Source of the DNA: Escallonia rubra
Taxonomy: Eukaryota; Streptophyta; Magnoliopsida; Escalloniales; Escalloniaceae
Length of the DNA stretch: 64,000 nucleotides
Assembly: GCA_033065855.1 (NCBI GenBank)
Contig: JAVXUO010003147.1
Coordinates: 335,871-399,870 of the forward strand
Reading direction: 5' to 3'
The position numbers and the translations under genes are program-made. Of the stretch, positions 14,241 to 63,273 are shown piece after piece. The notes under the pieces are model-generated. The model had not been told where the DNA came from. It searched no databases and saw only the letters and a list, made by a program, of their open reading frames with translations. Numbering within the stretch: position 1 is the stretch's first letter; every line of letters begins with the position of its first letter.

Positions 14241-15742
14241 CTAAGAAAACTGTCCAAAGCTGGTAGAAAGTCTCTGGAAATGCTTAGTATATACGTCGGC
14301 AGCTTGTAAAGGCTGCTGTTGCTGGTTCTGATGCCAAGTGGTGTTTACCAGACCATTGGTTGTGAGCTGTGTAATTTCAGGCTTAATTTCAGCACTATAC
14401 AAATCTTCAGCAGTCTGGTTTTGATGATGAATAGAACTTCCCAGTAAAAATGGTGCTTGAAGATATTCAGTCCATTTGATGTCTTCTGGGTGGCCTCCTA
14501 AAGATTGAATTTGGACTTCTTTCTCCGATTTCCCACAATCAGCAGCCGCTTCCCACGAAAAGGCATTGTTCTCGAAGAAGTTGCAATTGCTTTGCAGTGC
14601 AATACTGCTAGTACTTCCATTGTTGCTACTTGCACTATTATTGCTAAGCGTGTTCGTGTCCCAACTCTGCAGCCTGTTGATGTTAAAAGATGCTACAGGC
14701 CGCGTGGTGGTGGTGAGAATCGAGCTGGACATGGATGGTGTGAAAGAATTGGAATTGAAGTCATGAGTAATCATCTCAGAAGAAGACTTGGAATTCTGAT
14801 GGAAGAAGAGAGGGGAATTGGGATTCCCGGATAGCCCATAACTTAACTGCTGCTGGAAAGATAAGTAGGCTGCCAAATCAGAAGGTTTGTTGTTGCAAGT
14901 GGTGGTGGAGCTTTCATGGGAGGCAACAAACCTATTGAGGAAGAATTCATGGGTTGGTGGTTGGGATGACGATGATGTTGTCATGTTGTTGCAGTTGTTT
15001 TCGATAAGAGGGTATCGGTCCAATGCCACGGAGGAGGAATTAGGTAGCGGCTTTGGTTGTTTCTCTACTGCCATTCCATCAGCCTCTACAAAATTCAGTT
15101 CAATATTGGATATAACTTCAGATTCTTTCTCATTGTTTTTGTTGCTTGCTGATGCCTTCTCTTCATTCTCAACTTCTGATAGCGGCTTGTGAGTATTGGG
15201 GTCAATGCCTCTCTGCCTCAGCTTCTTCTTAATGGAAGAGTTCCATAGATTCTTTATTTCGTTATCCGTTCTTCCTGGCAACTGTGCTGCAATCTGAGAC
15301 CACCTGATGAAGCAATAAAATGTAAGTTCAACTCTGATGGTACTGGATGCATAACCAAGAATGTAAAAGGATTTGAGAAGAAACAAATCCTACTTGTTCC
15401 CTAGAACTGTATGAAGTTCTACTATCAAGTTTTCTTCCTGCTCTGAGAATGTGCCTCTTTTCAAATCAGGCCTCAAGTAGTTAATCCACCTTAGCCTGCA
15501 GCTTTTCCCACACCTTTGAAGACCTGGCAATGGAAGACATATTACACCTGTTCTTTTTTGTTTTACATTTCAGCAAAGAGAAGAGAAGTACTGAGGAAAA
15601 GAAGAGTACCTGCAAGTTTAGGAACAGAACTCCAGCACCCATGTCCATACTTGGTTATATGCTTCATAAGTTTCTCATCTTCCTCTGGAGACCATAATCC
15701 CTTCCTCAGCTTCTGCTTGTAGCAGCAAGAGTGCCTCCCCAT
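14241..15742 (-). CDS. R2R3-MYB transcription factor, MYB61/MYB86 type
   Basis: Three exons on the minus strand: 15742-15610, 15523-15394 and 15303-14241 (stop TAG), with 86- and 90-bp GT-AG introns in matching phase. The product is 441 aa. It starts [20 protein letters not shown], the signature of the MYB50/55/61/86 clade. R2 has Trp at 17, 37 and 57. R3 has Phe70, Trp89 and Trp108, and ends [20 protein letters not shown]. The intron positions are those usual for plant R2R3 genes. The C-terminal part is Ser/Asn/Gln-rich with an acidic block around [16 protein letters not shown] and an IKPE motif, both seen in this clade. Family knowledge: these factors bind AC-type elements and affect secondary wall, lignin/xylan, seed mucilage and stomatal behaviour. 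The exact orthologue is uncertain. I chose the internal Met at 15742 over an upstream in-frame one because the family starts there. Confidence 0.93.
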
Positions 15743-24000: not shown

Positions 24001-26014
24001 TGTACTGTTGGAAAATAAACTTGATTTAGTATTTAGAGTGGTGATTAGTGCAACATATTAATGTGTTAATGACATGTTAGTGGTCATTAGTCATGTGTTA
24101 GTGGGTGTTACTAATATGTTAGTGGAGCGTTAATAATATATTAGTGGTGCATATGTTACAAATGCATTATTAGCATAATTGAAGATGATGAGTGGTCTAG
24201 TAATTGTGTAGATAGTGGGGTAAGTGGTATGGTTATTGTAAGTTTGGGAGTTACTTTTAGGTATTATATAAACTCATGTACCTCAACTATTTTGAAAAAG
24301 TGGAATAAAAGTGTTCTCCTCATGTTTTCTTCATGTCCTCCTCATATAAGTGAGTGTATGAGTTTGAGTGTAACAAAGTGTGAGTTTGAGCGATCCATTT
24401 GTCTACAACAAAAGTGGTATCAGAGCCACAACGGTCCTAGTGGATGTTGTGGCGTTAATGTTTTAGTCACTACGGTTGTAGAAAAAAGTATCCGATGGAT
24501 ATTTGCTGTGAGAAATTATTGTTCTCAAATTATGTGAGAATGCAGAGTGTTCTTTCGTTGTATCTCAAATCATGTGATTTGTGGGATTTGGTCAATAAAG
24601 AATCACAAAGTAGCTTGTCAAAAGGAGTTCGACAAAAGAAGGAAGAAAATGCACTCCGGGTATTGCAGAAGGCCGTCCATACAGAGATATGGATGTGCAT
24701 TGGAGATGTAAGATCTCCAAGTGTTGTTTGGCAAATGATCGAGGTCATTGCTTCCAACCGTAGACGTGACTTCTTACCCAAAGAGTATTGGGTACAAAGC
24801 TGGGAAGAAGATGAGTTCACAAACGAAGATGGTGAACATCTCGAGGAAGAAACTCTAATGCGGGATGAAAATGAGTTTCATGCTTCCAAAGCTAATGAAA
24901 CAGAGGAGACAAGTGATGAACAAGAGTTCAAGGCTTTTGAAGCCAATGAGAATGAAGAGTTGACAAATAGAGAAGCGCCATTTGAAAAGATAGAGGAGAG
25001 CGAGAACACAGATTGTGATGACAATGCTCAATATGAAAAGATGGAAGATGAGAGCATTGACAAAGAAGTAAAAGTTCACGAAGGTCAAAACGTGAACAAC
25101 TCAGGTATGACTCTTAAATTTTCTTTACAAAGAGAAAATGTGGTCGGTTCATACTTTTTCGTGGCTAAGAATGATGTGGTAATGCCACAAGGATATGCCA
25201 CTAAGGATAGTATTTGGAAATCTTATTTTGTTAAAAATCCTCCTAGCGAGTTGTTTTTCATGCCTACGAAGGAAAATGATTTTGTGCAAAGTGAAACAAG
25301 TTGTCCTCAACTTGGTGTGGAGAATTTGTTGAGCGATACAGGCTGGGTAAATATGGAGACGTTCTTTGACCCGGAAGAGCGACAAGAAATGTCCAAAGGA
25401 AGTCATAAAAATCAAGTATTCAAGCAAGTGACGAAGAAATGCCGGAGGTACGATAAGAAGATGACTCATATACTATACACGTTAAAAGAAATGGCAAAGA
25501 AGGTTGTTATCGATGGAATTGGAGATGAAGACCATTGTTGGCGTTTATCAATCTTCCCAACGATGAATATTGTTTGAAGACATAAATCAAGTTTACAGGG
25601 GGGGTGTTGAAAAATAAACTTGATTTAGTATTTAGAGTGGTGATTAGTGCAACATATTAGTGTATTAATGACATGTTAGTGGTCATTAGTCATGTGTTAG
25701 TGGGTGTTACTAATATGTTAGTGGGGTGTTAATAATATATTAGTGGTGCATATGTTACAAATGCATTATTAGCATGATTGAAGATGAGAAGTGGTCTAAT
25801 AATTGTGTAGATAGTGGGGTAAGTGGTATGGTTGTTGTAAGTTTGAGAGTTACTTTTAGGCATTATATAAACTCATGTACCTCAACTATTTTGAAAAAGT
25901 GGAATAGAAGTGTTCTCCTCAAGTTCTCTCCATGTCCTCCTCGTACAAGTGAGTGTATGAGTTTGAGTGTAACAAAGTGTGAGTTTGAGAGATCCATTTG
26001 TCTACAACATGTAC
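24001..26014 (+). mobile_element. Short LTR retroelement (TR-GAG-like, copia-related), looks whole
   Basis: The two direct LTRs lie at 24006-24420 (415 bp) and 25605-26009 (405 bp), both TG...CA and nearly identical over most of their length. TGGTATCAGAGC at 24425, matching the initiator tRNA-Met primer site, starts 4 bp after the first LTR. A polypurine stretch (ACAGGGGGGG, 25595-25604) abuts the second. TGTAC flanks both sides (24001-24005 and 26010-26014) as a 5-bp target duplication. The 1.2-kb interior holds one open frame and no protease, integrase or polymerase. It is therefore a non-autonomous element, structurally complete, and insertion looks recent from the LTR similarity. Confidence 0.93.
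24495..25577 (+). CDS. gag-like ORF of the short LTR element
   Basis: The only sizeable open frame (360 codons) between the two LTRs. The N-terminal 110 residues resemble the start of copia-type gag: VRMQSVLSLYLKSCDLWDLV, then a block around LRVLQKAVHTEIWMCIGDV and VWQMIE, as in UBN2-type gag domains. The middle is very acidic (Glu/Asn-rich, about residues 110-205). The rest has no recognisable domain and no CCHC knuckle. It probably supplies a capsid-like protein or its remnant, and movement would need enzymes from a relative elsewhere. Confidence 0.6.
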   Translation: MDICCEKLLFSNYVRMQSVLSLYLKSCDLWDLVNKESQSSLSKGVRQKKEENALRVLQKAVHTEIWMCIGDVRSPSVVWQMIEVIASNRRRDFLPKEYWVQSWEEDEFTNEDGEHLEEETLMRDENEFHASKANETEETSDEQEFKAFEANENEELTNREAPFEKIEESENTDCDDNAQYEKMEDESIDKEVKVHEGQNVNNSGMTLKFSLQRENVVGSYFFVAKNDVVMPQGYATKDSIWKSYFVKNPPSELFFMPTKENDFVQSETSCPQLGVENLLSDTGWVNMETFFDPEERQEMSKGSHKNQVFKQVTKKCRRYDKKMTHILYTLKEMAKKVVIDGIGDEDHCWRLSIFPTMNIV

Positions 26015-44897: not shown

Positions 44898-47800
44898 ATG
44901 GCTAGTGAGACTGCTGTATCAGATCATCCTAGCGCCCCTGAGGTATGTTGCTTGCTCTTTTTCTTTTCTTTTCTTTATGGTTCTTTACTTTCAGTTCCTT
45001 CTAGATCTTCATGTCAAATAGGTACTTAATTCTGGCCTCTGCTGATAGGGGTTTGATACTTAGAAAAGCTTTGAGCTTTGTTATGATTAAGGTGTTTAAG
45101 CAAGACCCACTTGTGATTTAGTTTATGAGTTCACTTTTCAGTAGAAGTAAACAAAACTTAAGCCACGAATAGGGATTTGCTGCAAGACCCACTTGTGATA
45201 TCCTTTAATCTCTTACTAATCACTTGAACGCAGCATTTGAGGTTATGATTACGAACTTTTGAGCAGTGGTAGTCCCTTGAAATATTGCTCAGAAACTCTG
45301 TCTTTAAAGTCGGGAATTTCACTTAAACAATACCTAAACCTTCAGGTATCATGATATGTGATTGAGGGGACTGAGTGATGGTTAAGTGAAGAAGATTATA
45401 TCTATTTTCTTTCCAAGATTGATTTGCTTTCCCTTGAGAAACGATTATCCAATATCAATAAAAAATGAGGCACATATAGTATGATGCCAGAGGAGATGAT
45501 AAGCTACTCATTCAAATGCCATGAACAATGGGTTTTGTTGGATTATGAATTCGCGTGATATATCTAGAAGGTATAATCTCGTTTCTACCCAAAACACTTA
45601 AATCGACCAGAATTTAGGCGTCTTCCTAAAATTCTGACGTGTGTAATTTACAACGATCATGTATAGAAGAAGTTACACTAGATAAGATTTCCCCCCCAAC
45701 TGTCTCAACGGCAATTTGTCGTTCCTGCTATGAATGTCCAGTGTTAGTCTCCCTTTCCTCCAGAAACTTGTCTGATGTGGTTCTCGTGTTTTGTTCCTTA
45801 ACTCATCAACATGTTATCTACGAGATCACATGCAAAGATAACCTATAATTGCCAAACATGAAGTAAAAAAAGATTACTTATCATGCTTGTCATGCCAGAT
45901 GATCCTAAAGCAGGGTAGTGAATGTTTACTTATCGAGCTTGTCATCTGCATGATTGCTGTATTATCGTTTTTGTTTTTCACTTTTGATTTTCCAACTCTC
46001 AATTTGTTTCACTCTTGCTTATTTTCTCTTTTCTCCTGTCCTTTCGATAGCGGTAGTGACTTTTACAAGCACAGATGATTTCTTTGCTCGTCTTTGTTTG
46101 AAACTGATGAATTCCACGTTTACTGCAGCAAGTCAAGGAGGAGGTGCTTGAAGTGGTAAAAGCAATTGAACAAGAGAATGTTGCTCAAGCTAAGGAAGAA
46201 AAGCCAGAACCCGAGGACACACCTAGTCCAGATGTTATTTTACCTGAATCGAAAGAAAAGGTCGAGGATACACAGACACTGATAATTGAAGAGGTGAAGA
46301 AGAGTGACGCCGAAGAAGAAACGAAATCTGAGGACTTGCCAAGTCGGGTAACAGAATCAGCTGAAAAGATAGACGAGCAGCCTGTAGTTGAAGAGGTAAA
46401 GAAAACTGAAGAAGAAGAAAAGCCGAAAGTCGAGGACTTGCCAAGTACGGTTGTCCTTTTGACAGAATCAGAGGCAAAAATTGAAGAAAAGCTAGTTGAG
46501 CCTCCTGTAAGTGAAGAGGTAAAAGAAAGTGATATAGAAGAGCAGCCAACAGTAAAGGAACCTCCAATTGCAGAAGACCTTTTGGCTGCCGAAGAAAAAT
46601 ATGAAGAAAAGCAAGTTGAGAACCCTGTAACGGAAGAGGTAAACAAGATTGATGAAGAAGAAAAGCCAAAAGCTGAGGACCCTCCGACTCAAGAAGTCCC
46701 TGTGGCAGCAGTTGAAGAAAAGATTGAGGAAAAGCAGATTGAGTTTCCAGTAATTGAAGAGGTAAAGAAGATTGATGAGGAAGAGACGGCAAAAATTGAG
46801 GAGCCTCTGACTGTCCCTTCAACTGTAGTGGAGGAAAAAGTTGAGGAAAAGCAAGTAGTGTCTCCCGTAATTGAAGAGATAAAGAAGATTGATGAGGAAG
46901 AAACACCAAAAGCTGAGGAACATCCGATAGCCCCTTTGGATATAGCCAAGGAGAAGATTGAGGAAAAGGAAGTAGAGCCTCCGGTAATTGAAGAGGAAAA
47001 GAAGAGCGGTGAGGAAGAAAAACCAAAAGCTGGTGATTTGCCAAGTCCAGCTGTCCCTCCAGTTGAACTACAAGAGAAGATCGAGGATAAGCAAATTGAT
47101 TCTCCTGTAACTGAAGAGGCAAAGAAGCCCGACAGTATGGTGGTTGATGTTCCACTTGTAGATGCTGATGTTTCTGAACCCGATACTCCCAGTGTTCCAG
47201 AAGCAGTAGCTGACAACATTAAAGGCCAACGAGAGGAGGAAGTAGTCATGAAGACTGCTGAAAAACAAGAAGAGCAACTCACTGAGAAACAACCAACAGG
47301 GGAGCCAACAGAACCATCTGTCGAAGCTGTTGAGGAAAAGAAGGAACTGGTAGAAGAGTTGCCTGTCAAAGAATTGGAACCAGCTGCCGAAAAGGATGTA
47401 GAAATCTCTGAAGTGGAGTCTAAGACTGAAAAAGTTCAAGAATCAGTTCCTGCTGCGGAAGAGAAACCAGAAGAAAAAGCTGAAGTTTTTGAACAAACTG
47501 AGAAAGAATCTGCTGTAGCTGTTGCTAAGGAAAGTTTGGAGGTTGAAATAGCCAAAAAAGAGGAGATACCATTGGCTAGCAAGGTTGAGGAGGCCGAACT
47601 GAAGGAAGAGGAAACCCCCAAAGAGGAACCTCTTTTACCCGAAAGTTTAGGTCAAGTTTCTTCAACTGAAGTTGAAAATGATCAAGTTGGTCCAAAAGGA
47701 GATGAAGTACAATCTGTTCCTGCTGAAGTCACTGAAAATGGCAGTACAGAGGTTAGTGAAAAGGAAGTGGGCGTAGAGGCTGATGTGGTTGAGAAGAAAG

Positions 47801-48414
47801 AGGAAGCTGTGGTTGAAGCAGATGATGTAAAGAATGTGGAAACTGCAGAAGAGAATGGAGCGGTACATGCTGTAGTTGAGGAGTCGATTGAGCCTGTAAA
47901 GAAAGAAGTTGACGATGTGGCTAGCAGCATTTCCGCTGTTACTGAAAAATCTTTGGAGGTAGAAGATACTACAAGAGACGTTGATCTGGTTGCTGAATAT
48001 GGGAAAGAAGGATTAAAAGATGAGACAGCCGCTTCACTCGAAACCACCGAGAGAAAGTTGGATGAAGTCTTAACTACTGCTAGTAAGGAACCAGTAGAAG
48101 AGTCCTTGACGCCTGAGGCAGAAGTGAAAGGAGGAGAACCTGTGCAAACTGAAGAAACTAAACCCGAGAAGGAAAAGGAAGTTGATGACCTCGTAAAACC
48201 CGATATACCAAACGTAGAGTCCAACAACGGCGACAAGAAGACTACAGAGGACCCTCCTAAAGAAGAGGTTTCAGTCAAGTCCACTCAAAAGCAATCGAAC
48301 AACATCATGTCAAAGGTGAAGCAAACACTTGTCAAAGCGAAAAGAGCCATCGTCGGAAAATCTTCGAGCACGAAAGCTGCAGCTACTGAAACCAAAGGTG
48401 ATGTTACAGTTTAA
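44898..48414 (+). CDS. Acidic Glu/Lys/Val/Pro-rich repeat protein with a basic tail
   Basis: Two exons: 44898-44942 (MASETAVSDHPSAPE) and 46129-48414, joined by a 1.2-kb GT-AG intron in phase 0. The product is 776 aa. The start is supported by the short exon with a clean donor. A later GTG at 46144 is not a start. Residues about 60-350 consist of eight or so imperfect units of about 35-42 residues centred on PVIEEVKKIDEEEKPKAEDPP. The rest is still rich in Glu, Val and Lys, with no Cys-rich or catalytic domain. The last about 35 residues are basic (SKVKQTLVKAKRAIVGKSSS). No signal peptide or membrane segment is visible. It is probably an extended, disordered protein. Databases often label such plant proteins neurofilament- or titin-like by composition. 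The real function is unknown, and I do not assign one. Confidence 0.85.
46270..47135 (+). repeat. In-frame coding repeats of the acidic protein
   Basis: About eight tandem units of 100-130 bp, each containing a GTAA(T/C)TGAAGAGGTAAAGAAG-like core that encodes VIEEVKK. Units differ in length by whole codons, so the frame holds. The units at 46620-46990 are the most alike, which suggests unequal exchange. Confidence 0.8.
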
Positions 48415-49860
48415 TGATGTGACAAAGGAAGAATAGGGATTATGAGTGTGTGGTACCTTATAGTTGTGTGATTTGTTTCATTTGGTTCAGCAGCATTGCT
48501 GTTTGTTTGCCTGTGTGATTGGTTTGGGGTGTTTATACTAGAGGAGTATACACTGCTTTACCATATAGTGTGTAAAGTAGGAAACATGTTCACATCTATT
48601 TTCTTGTAACTATTCATCAGTTGTAAGTAGATTGTTTGTATGTTGGGGTTGTGATGATCATTGGGAAGAACTCTTTAGTCGCGTCGATAATGTACAGTCA
48701 CTGTTACAGTTGTGCATTTTATTGGTTTATTTATCGTCCACAAATAGCGTATGGCTTAAAAGCCTTTTATCATTGCCACAGATACCTCCTTCAGGTAAAC
48801 TGACGATTCCACAAGCTATTGTTACCATCTCACTAGTGCAGTGACTGCAGTCATCAGTTTTCATTGCATCACCACCACCGGAAAATTAGGAAAAAGTGAA
48901 TTTTTGGGCTAAAACTGGGTGGATAGAGGAAAATTCTTATGAAGTTATTAAAAAGTGGATTTTTATTGTGAAAACTTTTGAACCATGGGATGACTTTAAA
49001 GAACAAAAAAATGGGTTTTTCATGTTTTCAGCTTTTTGCCTACCCAAAATTCCCCTCGTCTTATTTTACAAAAAAAAGACATGGTCTAAACTTTCTCCCG
49101 ACCTTGTTGAGCAAAATGACCATATGTCCCTTCCTCAATTTTCCTTTCCCCTTGATCTGATTCCCCCCCAAATACATGTACTGAACCCTCACCGCGGCAT
49201 CCCCTCCCACATAAGCCCTCCCTCCCTCCCTCCCTCTAACTCTCCTCAAATATCAAATTGACATGACTGATAAAAATGACGAGTAGATCCCAAAATTGTA
49301 TTATTGTGAGATTCTCGATCTATATTTAAGTTTATGTGTCATTAGTGCATTCTATGTACTCTCGATGAACCATCTAGGAACAAGTCTAGTGTGTAGATTT
49401 GCAAGTACATCACACGTACATGCTTACAGCTTTCTGTATATATGCAAGTCATTTAGAACCAGGGTATCATGTCTTCGTTGTGGAATAAAAAGTTTGTGAA
49501 GAAATGTAATGATTGTTACCATTGCGTTGTACCTGTATTTGTGTCAAGAATGCAATATCGATTTCTTTCTTCCGTTTGGTTGGATGGAATGACAGTTGAA
49601 ATGTAATGAGTACGTGATCAAAAGTAAAAAGATACCATCTATATGTAGTGGGATAAGCTGCTACAATATTGAAAGGCTAACATGCGCGCATGCTACAACA
49701 GTTACATGCTACAAGGGCTACCTATTGGCTTATACATGAAAGTCATGATTCACCCAAGTATGCGTTAAACTTAAAGCTGCAATACAACATACTGTGTAAA
49801 CAACTATTACGTAGTACTACCTGATTGTTGCGGTAAAGAACGGGGTATATTGTGTAAATG
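48415..49860. other. 3' flank of the acidic-protein gene and intergenic DNA
   Basis: It includes the probable 3' untranslated region to about 48620. A short (TCCC)n run lies at about 49215-49235. No further gene was recognised. Confidence 0.45.
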
Positions 49861-50223
49861 GTACCTTTATTGGATCAATTGTTGGCATTTAGGGATGCAT
49901 AAATGTTTTTCACAAGTTATCACGGAATAAAAACACTTAAGATAGGACAGTTAAGCTATCATGGAACGTGCCAGCTGGTAGTCCTTGTAACGCGCTAGCA
50001 CATTATCCTTGTAACATTGTAGCAGGTTATTCCATATTATAATTTTTTTTAACTTTGAAGGTTTTCATCTCATTTTGAATCACTTAATCTTGAAAGAAGA
50101 AGACTTAATTCTTACTCTATAAAAGAATTACTAACAACAAAATAGTAACAGTCATTTTATTCCAACCTTATTCCAGTCAAGTAACAGAAGAACCTATTAT
50201 AAAAATTTAAACTTGAAAAACTT

Positions 50224-50788
50224 ACTCTGTTTGACAATTTATTTTTTTTGATCAGGAGATTTGAAATAAGAATTTTGAAGAGCAGTTAAAAAAAATTTAA
50301 AAAAACAAGTGGGTGTTTGATAACCCTTTTTTTAAAGAGGTAAAAAATACAACTTTGGTAATCCTTTTTATTTAACGTTACGGTGGTTTGCGGTGGCGGT
50401 GGTGGGGTGCAGCGGTGGTGGCCGGTGGTGGTGGTGGTGGCCGGCGGCCGGAGGTGGCTGCCAGCAGTCGCCAGCGGTGGTGGCCGGCGGCCGGAGGTGG
50501 CTGCCGGCAGTCGCCGGCGGCCGGAGGTGGCTCCGGCAGTCTCCGGCGGTGGCCACCGGCCGCCGGCGGTGGTCGCCTGAGGTGGCTGCCGACCGGCGGT
50601 GGGAGGGTGGTAGTGGTCAAAGAAAAAAAAACCAAAAGTGAAAAAAAAAACCAGTTTCTGGAGTTTTTTTCCTTACTCTTCAGTTTAAAAACTGGTTTTT
50701 AAACTGAAAAAATGGTTACCAAACGCTGTTTTTCAGTTTTTAAAAACTGAAAAAAGAGGAAATTTTTTTTGTCAAACCTAGCCTTTAC
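50224..50788 (+). mobile_element. GC-rich-core non-autonomous element, copy 1
   Basis: The outer parts are AT-rich: TGTTTGACA then AAGTGGGTGTTTGATAACC on the left, and AAATGGTTACCAAACGC then TGTCAAACC on the right, roughly inverted. The core, about 50380-50620, is made of (GGTGGCCGGCGGCCGGAGGT)-type words repeated several times. A second copy in inverse orientation lies at 62683-63273. TACTCTGTTTGACA occurs at both borders (50224 and 50786), where a partial second left end begins. No transposase was seen. Open frames over the core are low-complexity artefacts. Confidence 0.75.
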
Positions 50789-51330
50789 TCTGTTTGACAT
50801 AGCTTTTTTGTCTTCAGTTTTTAAATAACAATTTTTAAAGAGCAGTTAAAAAAAAATTAAAAAACAAGTGGGTATTTGATAACCCTTTTTTTTTGTTTTT
50901 TTTGTGTGTTTGGTAACCTTTATTGGATCAATTGTTGGATTTGCGGTGGCGATGCATAGCGGTAATCGACGATGTTATCACGGAATAAAAACACCGGAGA
51001 TGGTGGACGACTGTGGTTGTCGGGCTATCATGGAACGTGCCACCTGGTTGTGGTGGTTGCCGACGGTCGGAGGTTATCCTTGTAACATTGTAGCAGGTTA
51101 TTCCAGATTGGCTGTCGGGCGACGGTGGCTGCCGGAGGTGGCCTGGCCACGGTTTCATCTCATTTCGACGGTCACTCCATCCGACCGATGGGCGGTGGCT
51201 ACCGGCGGTGGGTGAGTTCTACCAACAACAAAATAGTAACAGTCATTTTATTCCTTTCCGAACCTTATTCCAGTCATGTGAACGGAAGAAGCCTAATTGT
51301 GGATGCAAAAAGTGAAAATATGAAAAACTT
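50786..51330 (+). repeat. Partial element end plus interleaved (mosaic) copy of 49861-50220
   Basis: The segment 50789-50911 repeats the left end of the element at 50224. From 50912 to about 51330 the sequence matches the unique DNA at 49861-50220 in ordered blocks of 8-40 bp: TTATTGGATCAATTGTTGG, GTTATCACGGAATAAAAACA, CTATCATGGAACGTGCCA, TATCCTTGTAACATTGTAGC and ACAAAATAGTAACAGTCA. The AT-rich stretches between those blocks are replaced by GC-rich words like those of the element core, such as TTGCGGTGGCG and GGCGGTGGCTACCGGCGGTG. Confidence 0.8.
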
Positions 51331-51334
51331 ATTT

Positions 51335-52148
51335 TGTCCCAAGCCTTTTTTTTTGGTCGAAACGGAAACTGCATTAAACAAAAACACAAATTACAACCTA
51401 AAAAGCCCAAACAAATATTTGGCTCTAGAAACATAGTACCCAAAAGTACAAACATAAGCTTGACCCTGGAACATAAACCAGCCAACATCGCCTTGACAGA
51501 AATTGGAAAAGATAAGTATTATCATTGTTGGATTTATTAAATTCAGATCAAGTGGTAACAGAGTGGAAGAGCTGCAGCGAGACATCAATTCCAAGGGCCG
51601 CTTGAAGTGGCAGTTTACATTACTGTCGCGGTTGTCTTCGGATCCAAAAAAGGTGGAACGAGTTCTCAAGGCCGGATCAGAATGATCCGAAGCTCGAAGG
51701 GAGTCGGAATCCTCCATCTCGTCTAGATCAGGCCTCCTCACTCTACAATCCCTCCATATCGGACCCACGTCAAAAGAGTCAACCCAAACCAACCAGATCG
51801 GAAGTCCGACGACCATGACGGATCTGAAAAAAACTTTCAGATCTGAGGGAAGCGAGTGGGAGGGAGTAAGATTGTGGCTGAAGGGCTCCCGGGGTGGAGG
51901 TCGGGAGGTGGAGGAGGGTGGTGGCAAATGGCGGCACAGGTGGGTAGCCAAGAAAGAGGGAGCAAAAGATGCGAAAAAAAGAAACAAGAGAAGAAGAACT
52001 AACGAAATGAGGGCGTCCCCTTCCATCCTTACAGCCATGGAAGCCGAAAGAGGAAGGGGCGACAGCTGGGTTTACTGGAAAAGAAAGATGGGTTTTCTGG
52101 AGAGAGAAGGGGGCTTGCTATTAAAGAAACAACAAGTCATGTCCCAAG
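51335..52148 (-). mobile_element. Retroposed non-LTR insert with poly(A) and 9-bp target duplication
   Basis: TGTCCCAAG flanks both sides (51335-51343 and 52140-52148). Next to the left copy is a T-run (A-tail on the minus strand) preceded, on the minus strand, by TGCAGTTTCCGTTTCGACC. The 3' end is therefore near 51344 and the 5' end near 52139. A minus-strand open frame (52038-51391, 215 codons) starts ATGGCTGTAAGGATGGAAGG but matches no family I know. The insert is probably a 5'-truncated LINE, a long SINE or a retrocopy of a host transcript. Confidence 0.7.
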
Positions 52149-58800: not shown

Positions 58801-60204
58801 AAAAGGGTAGCAGTTCAGCATTTTAACTTACTTCACTTTGGCATTCATACTCCTCAGTGTCACGACATTTTCTCTTCATGTTATTTGTCAGATCATTAGA
58901 GGCTCTCTCTGCACTATTGCCTGAGCAAGCAGAAGAAGCAACTGCGGGCTCAACAGTCTTTTCACTCGCCGGCACTTCTTTTATTGTATTTTCAGCAAGA
59001 GGCTGATTAGAAGACTTATCATTATTGTCAGCTTCTTCTCGGCAAACAGCATCAGATTGTTCAGCAGGACGGGACTCCTCGAGTGGCTTAACCACTATAG
59101 GTTTTGAATCTAGCTTCGGAGACACCATATTAGGTCGAACAGGCAAGCCCATTTCATTCTGAAATCGCGTGTCAATGAGTCTACAGTCGGCATGATTTTT
59201 ACTCCTTGCAGCAGACACTTTATCCATATCTCCCATCCTTTCCATACCTGACGAGCCCGAAGCAGAAACAGCAACGACATTCTGCAGATTAGCCCTAGCA
59301 ATAGCAGCGGGTCTTGAAAAATGGGAAAAGTTCAATAAGTTGGAATTTTGCTTCTGTCTCAAGGGAGAAAAACCACCGGCTGAAGCTCGACTCTGAACCG
59401 AGTCCCCACAAATCGCATGGTGAGTGTTGCTGGTATGACTGCTAATAATATCAGAAACTCCTGATCCAAGAGATGGAGTTGAAGCTTGCCCTTGATGCAA
59501 TGACCATGGATATAACTGACCAGTTCTTGAGGAAGAAAGCTTCTGTGTGTTATCTTGTTCCAAATTAATGCCACTACTTACAGAGACGGTATGTGAATCC
59601 CTAACTGCCACATTACAAGTATTGCTCTTGTCCAGGGACCCAAAATTTTCCTGGGTAGAGGGAGCATTTACAGTAACACCAGATAACTCAGGTAAGAAAT
59701 CAGAGCAGTAATCGTGTTGAAGAGTATCTTCCATAGGATAATTCAGCCAAGGTACTATGTCATCATCTTGACTCAAAACCATATCACCCGAGGGCACTGA
59801 CATTGTAATATCACTATAAATGGAGTCGACGGTCCCAAATTTCCCAATCTTGGAAGTGGTAGCGCTCCCTACATCCTTGTCGCGTAGTCTGGGTGTGTGA
59901 AACTGAAAATTGCTCGAAATAGAACCCCTCTTGCCTTTACTGGACTGACCTTGCATCATAATCTGACCATTTTCCCATACTAGCTCAACTAACTCATTAT
60001 CCGGTCTGCATTCACCAGCACTTAACACTATAGCAAGAATACAAGGAAACAAAAGGAAGACTAGAAATTGATGGAAATTAATTGCATAATAATAAGCACT
60101 CAGATAACTTACAGATATGAAAGATCAGTTGGACATGGGGTGGTTTTATGCTGGGAAACTTCAGTCTTTCCTTTAATCATCTTGTAGAACTCAGAGAGGG
60201 GCAT
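55804..60204 (-). CDS. PIF3: Phytochrome-interacting bHLH factor, PIF3 type
   Basis: Seven exons on the minus strand: 60204-60113, 60005-58832, 58733-58629, 58518-58453, 58273-58208, 58071-57556 and 55935-55804. All phases agree, giving 716 aa. It begins [13 protein letters not shown] like other PIF3 proteins. The APB motif [11 protein letters not shown] (residues 35-45) binds active phytochrome [19 protein letters not shown] (about 107-124) corresponds to the PIF3 APA-like, phytochrome A-related block. The bHLH runs about 444-506: basic region [19 protein letters not shown] with His452, Glu456 and Arg459/460 (G-box readers), then [14 protein letters not shown] and [20 protein letters not shown]. 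The tail is Met/Gly/Pro-rich. It should act in the nucleus, repressing light responses until phytochrome triggers its degradation. Exon 2 could start at another in-phase AG (60015), adding residues. I chose the CAG acceptor because it gives the usual [11 protein letters not shown] spacing. The orthologue within the PIF3 clade is likely, not proven. Confidence 0.94.
56819..57534. mobile_element. hAT-like non-autonomous element in the last PIF3 intron
   Basis: The flanks carry the same GGTTAAAA (56819-56826 and 57527-57534), an 8-bp target duplication typical of hAT elements. The ends are inverted: CTAGAAAGTACCGACACC on the left, and CTTGGTAGCACGGACAC reading inward from the right. GTGTCCG/CGGACAC words recur near both ends. 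It is about 700 bp and AT-rich in the middle, with no transposase. Confidence 0.75.
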
Positions 60205-62682: not shown

Positions 62683-63273
62683 AAAGGCCAGTTTGACAAA
62701 AAAAAATTTTTTTTCAGTTTTAAAAACTGGGAAAAAAAAAGGAGCGTTTGGTAACCATTTTTTTTTTTTTTTTTAAAAATCAGTTTTTAAACTGAATAGT
62801 AAAAAAAAAAACTCCAAAACCTAGTTTTTTTTTTCATTTTTTTTTTTCTTTGCCACCACTGGTCACCGCCGGCAGCCACCGGCGGTGACCACCTCCGGCC
62901 GTCGGCGACCACTGCCAGAGACTGCCAGCAGCCACCTCCGGCCGCCGGCGACCACCGCCGAAGGCTGCCGGCAGCCACCTCCGTCCGCCGGCCACCACCG
63001 CCGGCGACTGCCGACAGCCACCTCCGGCCGCCGGCCACCACCGCCGGAGACTGCCGGCAGCCATCTCCGGCCGCAGGCCACCACCACCACCACCGCAAAC
63101 CACCGCTACACCCCACCACCGCCACCGCAAACCACAAAAAAAAAAAAAAAAAAAAAAAAAAGGGTTACCAAACACAAAAAAAAAAAAAAAAAAAAGGTTA
63201 TCAAACACCCACCTGCTGTTATAAAAAAAAAAAACTTAAAAATTAAAAACCAAAAAAAAAAATTTGTCAAACC
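62683..63273 (-). mobile_element. GC-rich-core non-autonomous element, copy 2
   Basis: This is the inverse-orientation relative of the element at 50224. Read on the minus strand it has GTTTGACAAA, then GGTGGGTGTTTGATAACC, GTTTGGTAACC and GTGGTTTGCGGTGGCGG. The core is made of GCCGGAGGTGGCTG words repeated about six times. AATGGTTACCAAACGCTCC, TTTTAAAACTG and GTCAAACTGGCC follow. Long A/T runs separate the parts. No transposase was seen. The open frames across the core (both strands) are repeats, not genes. Confidence 0.78.

Follow-up and report, generated by a model that had tools for sequence, protein, structure and literature searches.

The segment at 50912-51330 (plus strand) of the window, that is, of the whole 64,000-base stretch of DNA analysed here, is a mosaic, an in-order blend of two sources, a transposable element and the host DNA that flanks it. 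It very probably represents an assembly consensus error, in which consensus software collapsed a site where one chromosome copy carries two adjacent Tourist-like MITEs and the other carries none. The text of this ~420-base mosaic is genuine, but the DNA is most likely not real and absent from the plant itself; we infer that the plant is heterozygous here, that software produced the blend and that no single molecule contains it.

Layout of the Mosaic

The host left flank, present as a clean copy at 49861-50224 (plus strand), recurs in the same order as 50912-51330 according to repeat search and global alignment, which bears out the sequence-only reading of the later segment as an in-order repeat of upstream host text. 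The ungapped blocks common to both copies (23/23, 25/28, 26/28, 35/36, 15/16, 34/35, and 18/19 bases) are 89-100% identical, and the spacers are filled with GC-rich words unlike the host. Spacer identity is 0.52 in the mosaic pair, compared with 0.86 in an ordinary repeat pair of the same window (24012-24410 and 25611-26009). According to the alignment and a two-source model, the clean flank supplies the host words of the mosaic, which are interleaved with the text of an element termed E2, each source running in order.

Between the two versions of the host text, where a clean element had been noted, lies E1 (50225-50784, plus strand), a Tourist-like MITE by its ends, with a GC-rich core and a resemblance to a copy near 63 kb. 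Its left target duplication is read as the TTA at 50222-50224 from the sequence and the ends of other copies, and another TTA (50785-50787) is common to the right end of E1 and the left end of E2. The partial second element end that had been described ahead of the mosaic is likewise present, as the clean left end of E2 (50788-50911, plus strand), assigned to another subfamily by its matches to the family copy L020 (15/16, 42/44, 44/46, and 10/10 bases, and a further segment of 12 bases falling in another part of L020). E1 and E2 stand head to tail, as members of the same MITE family with one TTA between them (50222-50787), as if one of them had inserted at the target duplication of the other. 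A further E1-type MITE, with a GC-rich tandem core of a 43-base unit, occupies about 62690-63270 on the minus strand.

Source of the GC-Rich Words

The window corresponds to positions 335871-399870 of contig C1194 in an assembly of 566 Mb and 3222 contigs. With the mosaic as query, this assembly yielded 66 matches, of which many fall in copies of a single repeat family; 20 of these loci were fetched. Under an in-order model, the best-scoring element source was L020 (472), followed by L019 (466), L016 (422), L014 (420), and L023 (416), while E1 and the copy near 63 kb reached 312 and 332 in the same model; this scoring covered the fetched loci apart from L009, L013, and L024, in which the anchor motif was not found. 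When free jumps were allowed, all but one of the 20 fetched loci outscored both E1 (504) and the 63-kb copy (488), the exception being L010 (385), whose orientation was probably misassigned. The mosaic agrees with L020 at 33/33 bases in 51186-51218 and at 43/44 bases in 51109-51152, and its element words match other family copies at 14/14, 43/44, and 33/33 bases. Since the GC-rich words fit L020 and L019 much better than E1 or the 63-kb copy, these comparisons indicate that they belong to E2, a second element of a distinct subfamily, and not to the neighbouring E1. The proposal that GC-rich words replace host words thus stood, while their attribution to the core of the nearby element gave way to E2.

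Order of Both Sources

With L020 as the element and order not enforced, host segments of at least 12 bases within 50916-51295 ascend in 7/7 cases, and element segments of at least 14 bases in 9/9; the corresponding element figures are 11/11 with L019 and 10/11 with L016. Several shorter element segments fall out of order in the free-order model, where the repetitive core makes their placement ambiguous, as does the last segment, 51331-51346 (13/16). When order was enforced, 29 segments accounted for 407 of 440 bases (92.5%), with a score of 514. Block shuffling of the element gave scores of 352-454, and that of the host 262-394 (n = 60 each), so that the real order exceeded all 120 shuffles, and a further 30/30 in a separate control run. 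To our knowledge, no biological process moves forward along two unrelated, non-homologous templates in register; simultaneous advance along two unrelated sequences is the behaviour expected of an alignment-based consensus.

Simulated Consensus

A toy partial-order-alignment consensus was given noisy reads from two sources, the host flank and an E2-type element, which ended in a common right flank. In a first trial of four runs, 10:10 coverage gave blends, while 8:12 coverage gave essentially pure element. A grid of 96 runs then covered four settings of coverage and error. All 24 runs at 11:9 coverage and 10% error blended the two sources, and the real values lay inside the simulated ranges: length (515, the 75-base flank included, against 483-552), host exact bases (155 against 102-256), element exact bases (115 against 25-180), switches (11 against 2-14), and longest host block (32 against 24-83). 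The other 72 of the 96 runs missed the real length, with 574-675 at 10:10 and 456-477 at 11:9 with 2% error.

Two figures depart from the simulation. Bases common to both sources occur at 7/20 of the real switches, compared with 57-74% in eight further simulated consensuses, and 92.5% of the bases are explained in the mosaic, compared with 96-98% in simulated consensuses. Both shortfalls suggest that the simulation model does not match the actual software or the actual alleles; E2 and the host allele as they exist in the plant may not be identical to the sequences used, which should lower both figures. Shared bases at switches were discarded as a fingerprint, as 7/20 is by rough estimate no higher than chance. 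Given the lower share than in the simulated consensuses, we make no claim of a specifically partial-order-alignment origin.

Right End of the Mosaic

The mosaic ends with GAAAAACTTA followed directly by TTTTGTCCCAAGCC and then by a high-copy repeat, which opens with poly(T). Host text reaches the right flank here, apparently without the right terminus of E2; an early layout that took TTTTGTCCCAAGCC for this terminus was superseded by the target-site-duplication reading. The high-copy repeat (51346-52120, minus strand, poly(T) first on the plus strand), delimited by genome matches, is probably a non-LTR retroelement. The 9-base TGTCCCAAG occurs at 51335-51343 and recurs exactly just past the repeat at 52140-52148 (both plus strand), a probable target-site duplication that was equalled by 17 of 5000 random draws. 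Another copy of the repeat, L037, is flanked by a 19-base duplication; the retroelement end and this duplication are taken from that single copy, the alignments of L034, L035, L036, and L038 being short and uninformative. In our reading, TTTTGTCCCAAGCC is host DNA that the retroelement insertion duplicated.

On this reading, the apparent empty insertion site spans 51322-51345 (plus strand), with the host left flank up to TTA (51329-51331) and then the right flank TTTTGTCCCAAGCC, so that host text appears to cross the TTA of E1 uninterrupted at 51331/51332. A filled junction (50224/50225) and an apparent empty site thus stand in one contig, as expected from the merging of two haplotypes.

Other Copies of the Host Flank and Search for Further Mosaics

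When the assembly was queried with 49300-50220, the host flank turned up in no other clean copy, which fits a collapsed assembly without proving it. Besides its own locus and the mosaic, the search gave 23 matches of 65-88% identity, 17 of them restricted to query positions 1-435. Parts of the host-flank region also match other loci, C2468 and C2672 among them, with mixed orientations, so that an old repeat may lie within the flank. An imperfect inverted repeat (74%; 49649-49698 and 49985-50034) spans part of the host flank.

A simple detector of collinear exact blocks with dissimilar spacers (at least four exact blocks of at least 15 bases, a setting that misses finer blends) flags the mosaic, and recovered it again in L001-L003, L029, L030, and L033. 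It was applied to the 64,000 bases of the window and to 276,733 bases of fetched loci, which partly overlap the window and are small relative to 566 Mb; no further mosaic was recognised in these sequences, some flagged chains having been judged unaligned. On alignment, L006 and one of two chains in L017 proved to be ordinary duplications with indels. L053, L054, and L055 were taken for tandem arrays from their chain pattern, unaligned, and the other L017 chain, L024, and L027 are short-block chains in loci of the GC-core family, also unaligned. The diverged tandem arrays lie at 4756-6825 of L053, 8941-9952 of L054, and 3484-3910 of L055.

Origin of the Mosaic

A consensus error that merged haplotypes with and without the insertion, as had been proposed from the sequence, is supported by the collinear element text, the shuffles, the simulation, and the apparent empty TTA site. 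Under this explanation, the sequenced plant would be heterozygous at the locus: one chromosome copy (A) would carry unbroken host DNA up to the right-hand retroelement, and the other (B) would carry E1 and E2 side by side, inserted at a TTA. The contig would track copy B as far as the left end of E2, where reads of copy A, anchored on the right flank, would be aligned base by base onto the non-homologous core of E2; the consensus would then pick the locally heavier source, so that blocks of host and E2 would alternate, each source in order, before the sequence finished on copy A by way of the empty site.

An in-order blend of two sources does not by itself make these sources alleles, and the fit of the mosaic to the simulated consensus model is incomplete, so that another software artefact, such as a misjoin, gap filling, or a merger of two different loci, might be considered; we regard it as unlikely, because the absence of a second clean host flank from the assembly argues against merged loci, and the passage of the mosaic into the correct right flank via the apparent empty site points to two alleles of one locus. 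The mosaic does stand in the assembly as submitted, and replication-based template switching is known in general, but real DNA would call for repair or replication switching about 20 times between two non-homologous templates, forward on both, or for repeated short-tract conversion. Such an origin seems very improbable, given that the switches progress along both unrelated sequences together and are not enriched for shared bases. A plain tandem duplication that then decayed would give the block order that is seen, yet it is scarcely credible in view of the spacers, which, beside blocks of such high identity, are far less alike than in the ordinary pair and match the element family; the sequence-only reading had judged it unfit on similar grounds.

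Other Features of the Window

The diverged direct repeats at 24012-24410 and 25611-26009 enclose a 360-aa open frame (24495-25577) and may represent either a duplication or a small element of LTR type. A 756-aa open frame (46144-48414) is very rich in E, K, and V, and contains tandem repeats of 117-123 bases, which correspond to protein repeats of ~40 residues. Two minus-strand open frames, 14241-15386 and 58823-60052, look like MYB and PIF-type bHLH transcription factors of a flowering plant, respectively, which is our assumption. More generally, the genes and repeats here appear to be of flowering-plant type.

Comparison with Known Systems

Terminal inverted repeats GGCTCTGTTTGACAG ... CTGTCAAACGGCCCC are found in several copies of the E1/E2 family, and the inverted ends centre on GTTTGACA. 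Among the 20 loci scanned by pattern, both element ends were found in five, with TTA on both sides in three of these and TTT/TTA and CTA/TAA in the others; right ends were followed by TTA in 9/12 and TAA in 1/12, and left ends were preceded by TTA in 4/10 and TAA in 3/10. According to PMC2213677, the PIF/Harbinger superfamily has target duplications of 3 bases, TTA or TAA. The family resembles Tourist-like MITEs of this superfamily in its inverted ends and TTA/TAA target duplications, but is set apart by its core, which is GC-rich, repetitive and a few hundred bases long. By their 3-base target duplications and terminal inverted repeats, E1, E2 and their relatives are thus classed as Tourist-like MITEs.

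If the mosaic were real, a new kind of mutation would be needed; as an artefact, in-order interleaving of flank and inserted element would clearly mark a heterozygous transposon insertion whose haplotypes have been collapsed. Such stretches would mislead work on duplication, gene conversion, and transposon age. No paper recognised in our literature search, within the parts of the sources it covered, describes the 10-40 base interleaving pattern. As stated in part of PMC9526047, divergent alleles in noisy long reads hamper haploid reconstruction, and post-processing yields mosaic sequences; the mosaics in that part of the text concern haplotype switching in general, and differ from the fine alternation of non-homologous text every 10-40 bases, which is not described there. 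The mosaic of the present window is nevertheless comparable to the haplotype-collapsed consensus of noisy long-read assemblies, in which two divergent alleles likewise become one sequence.
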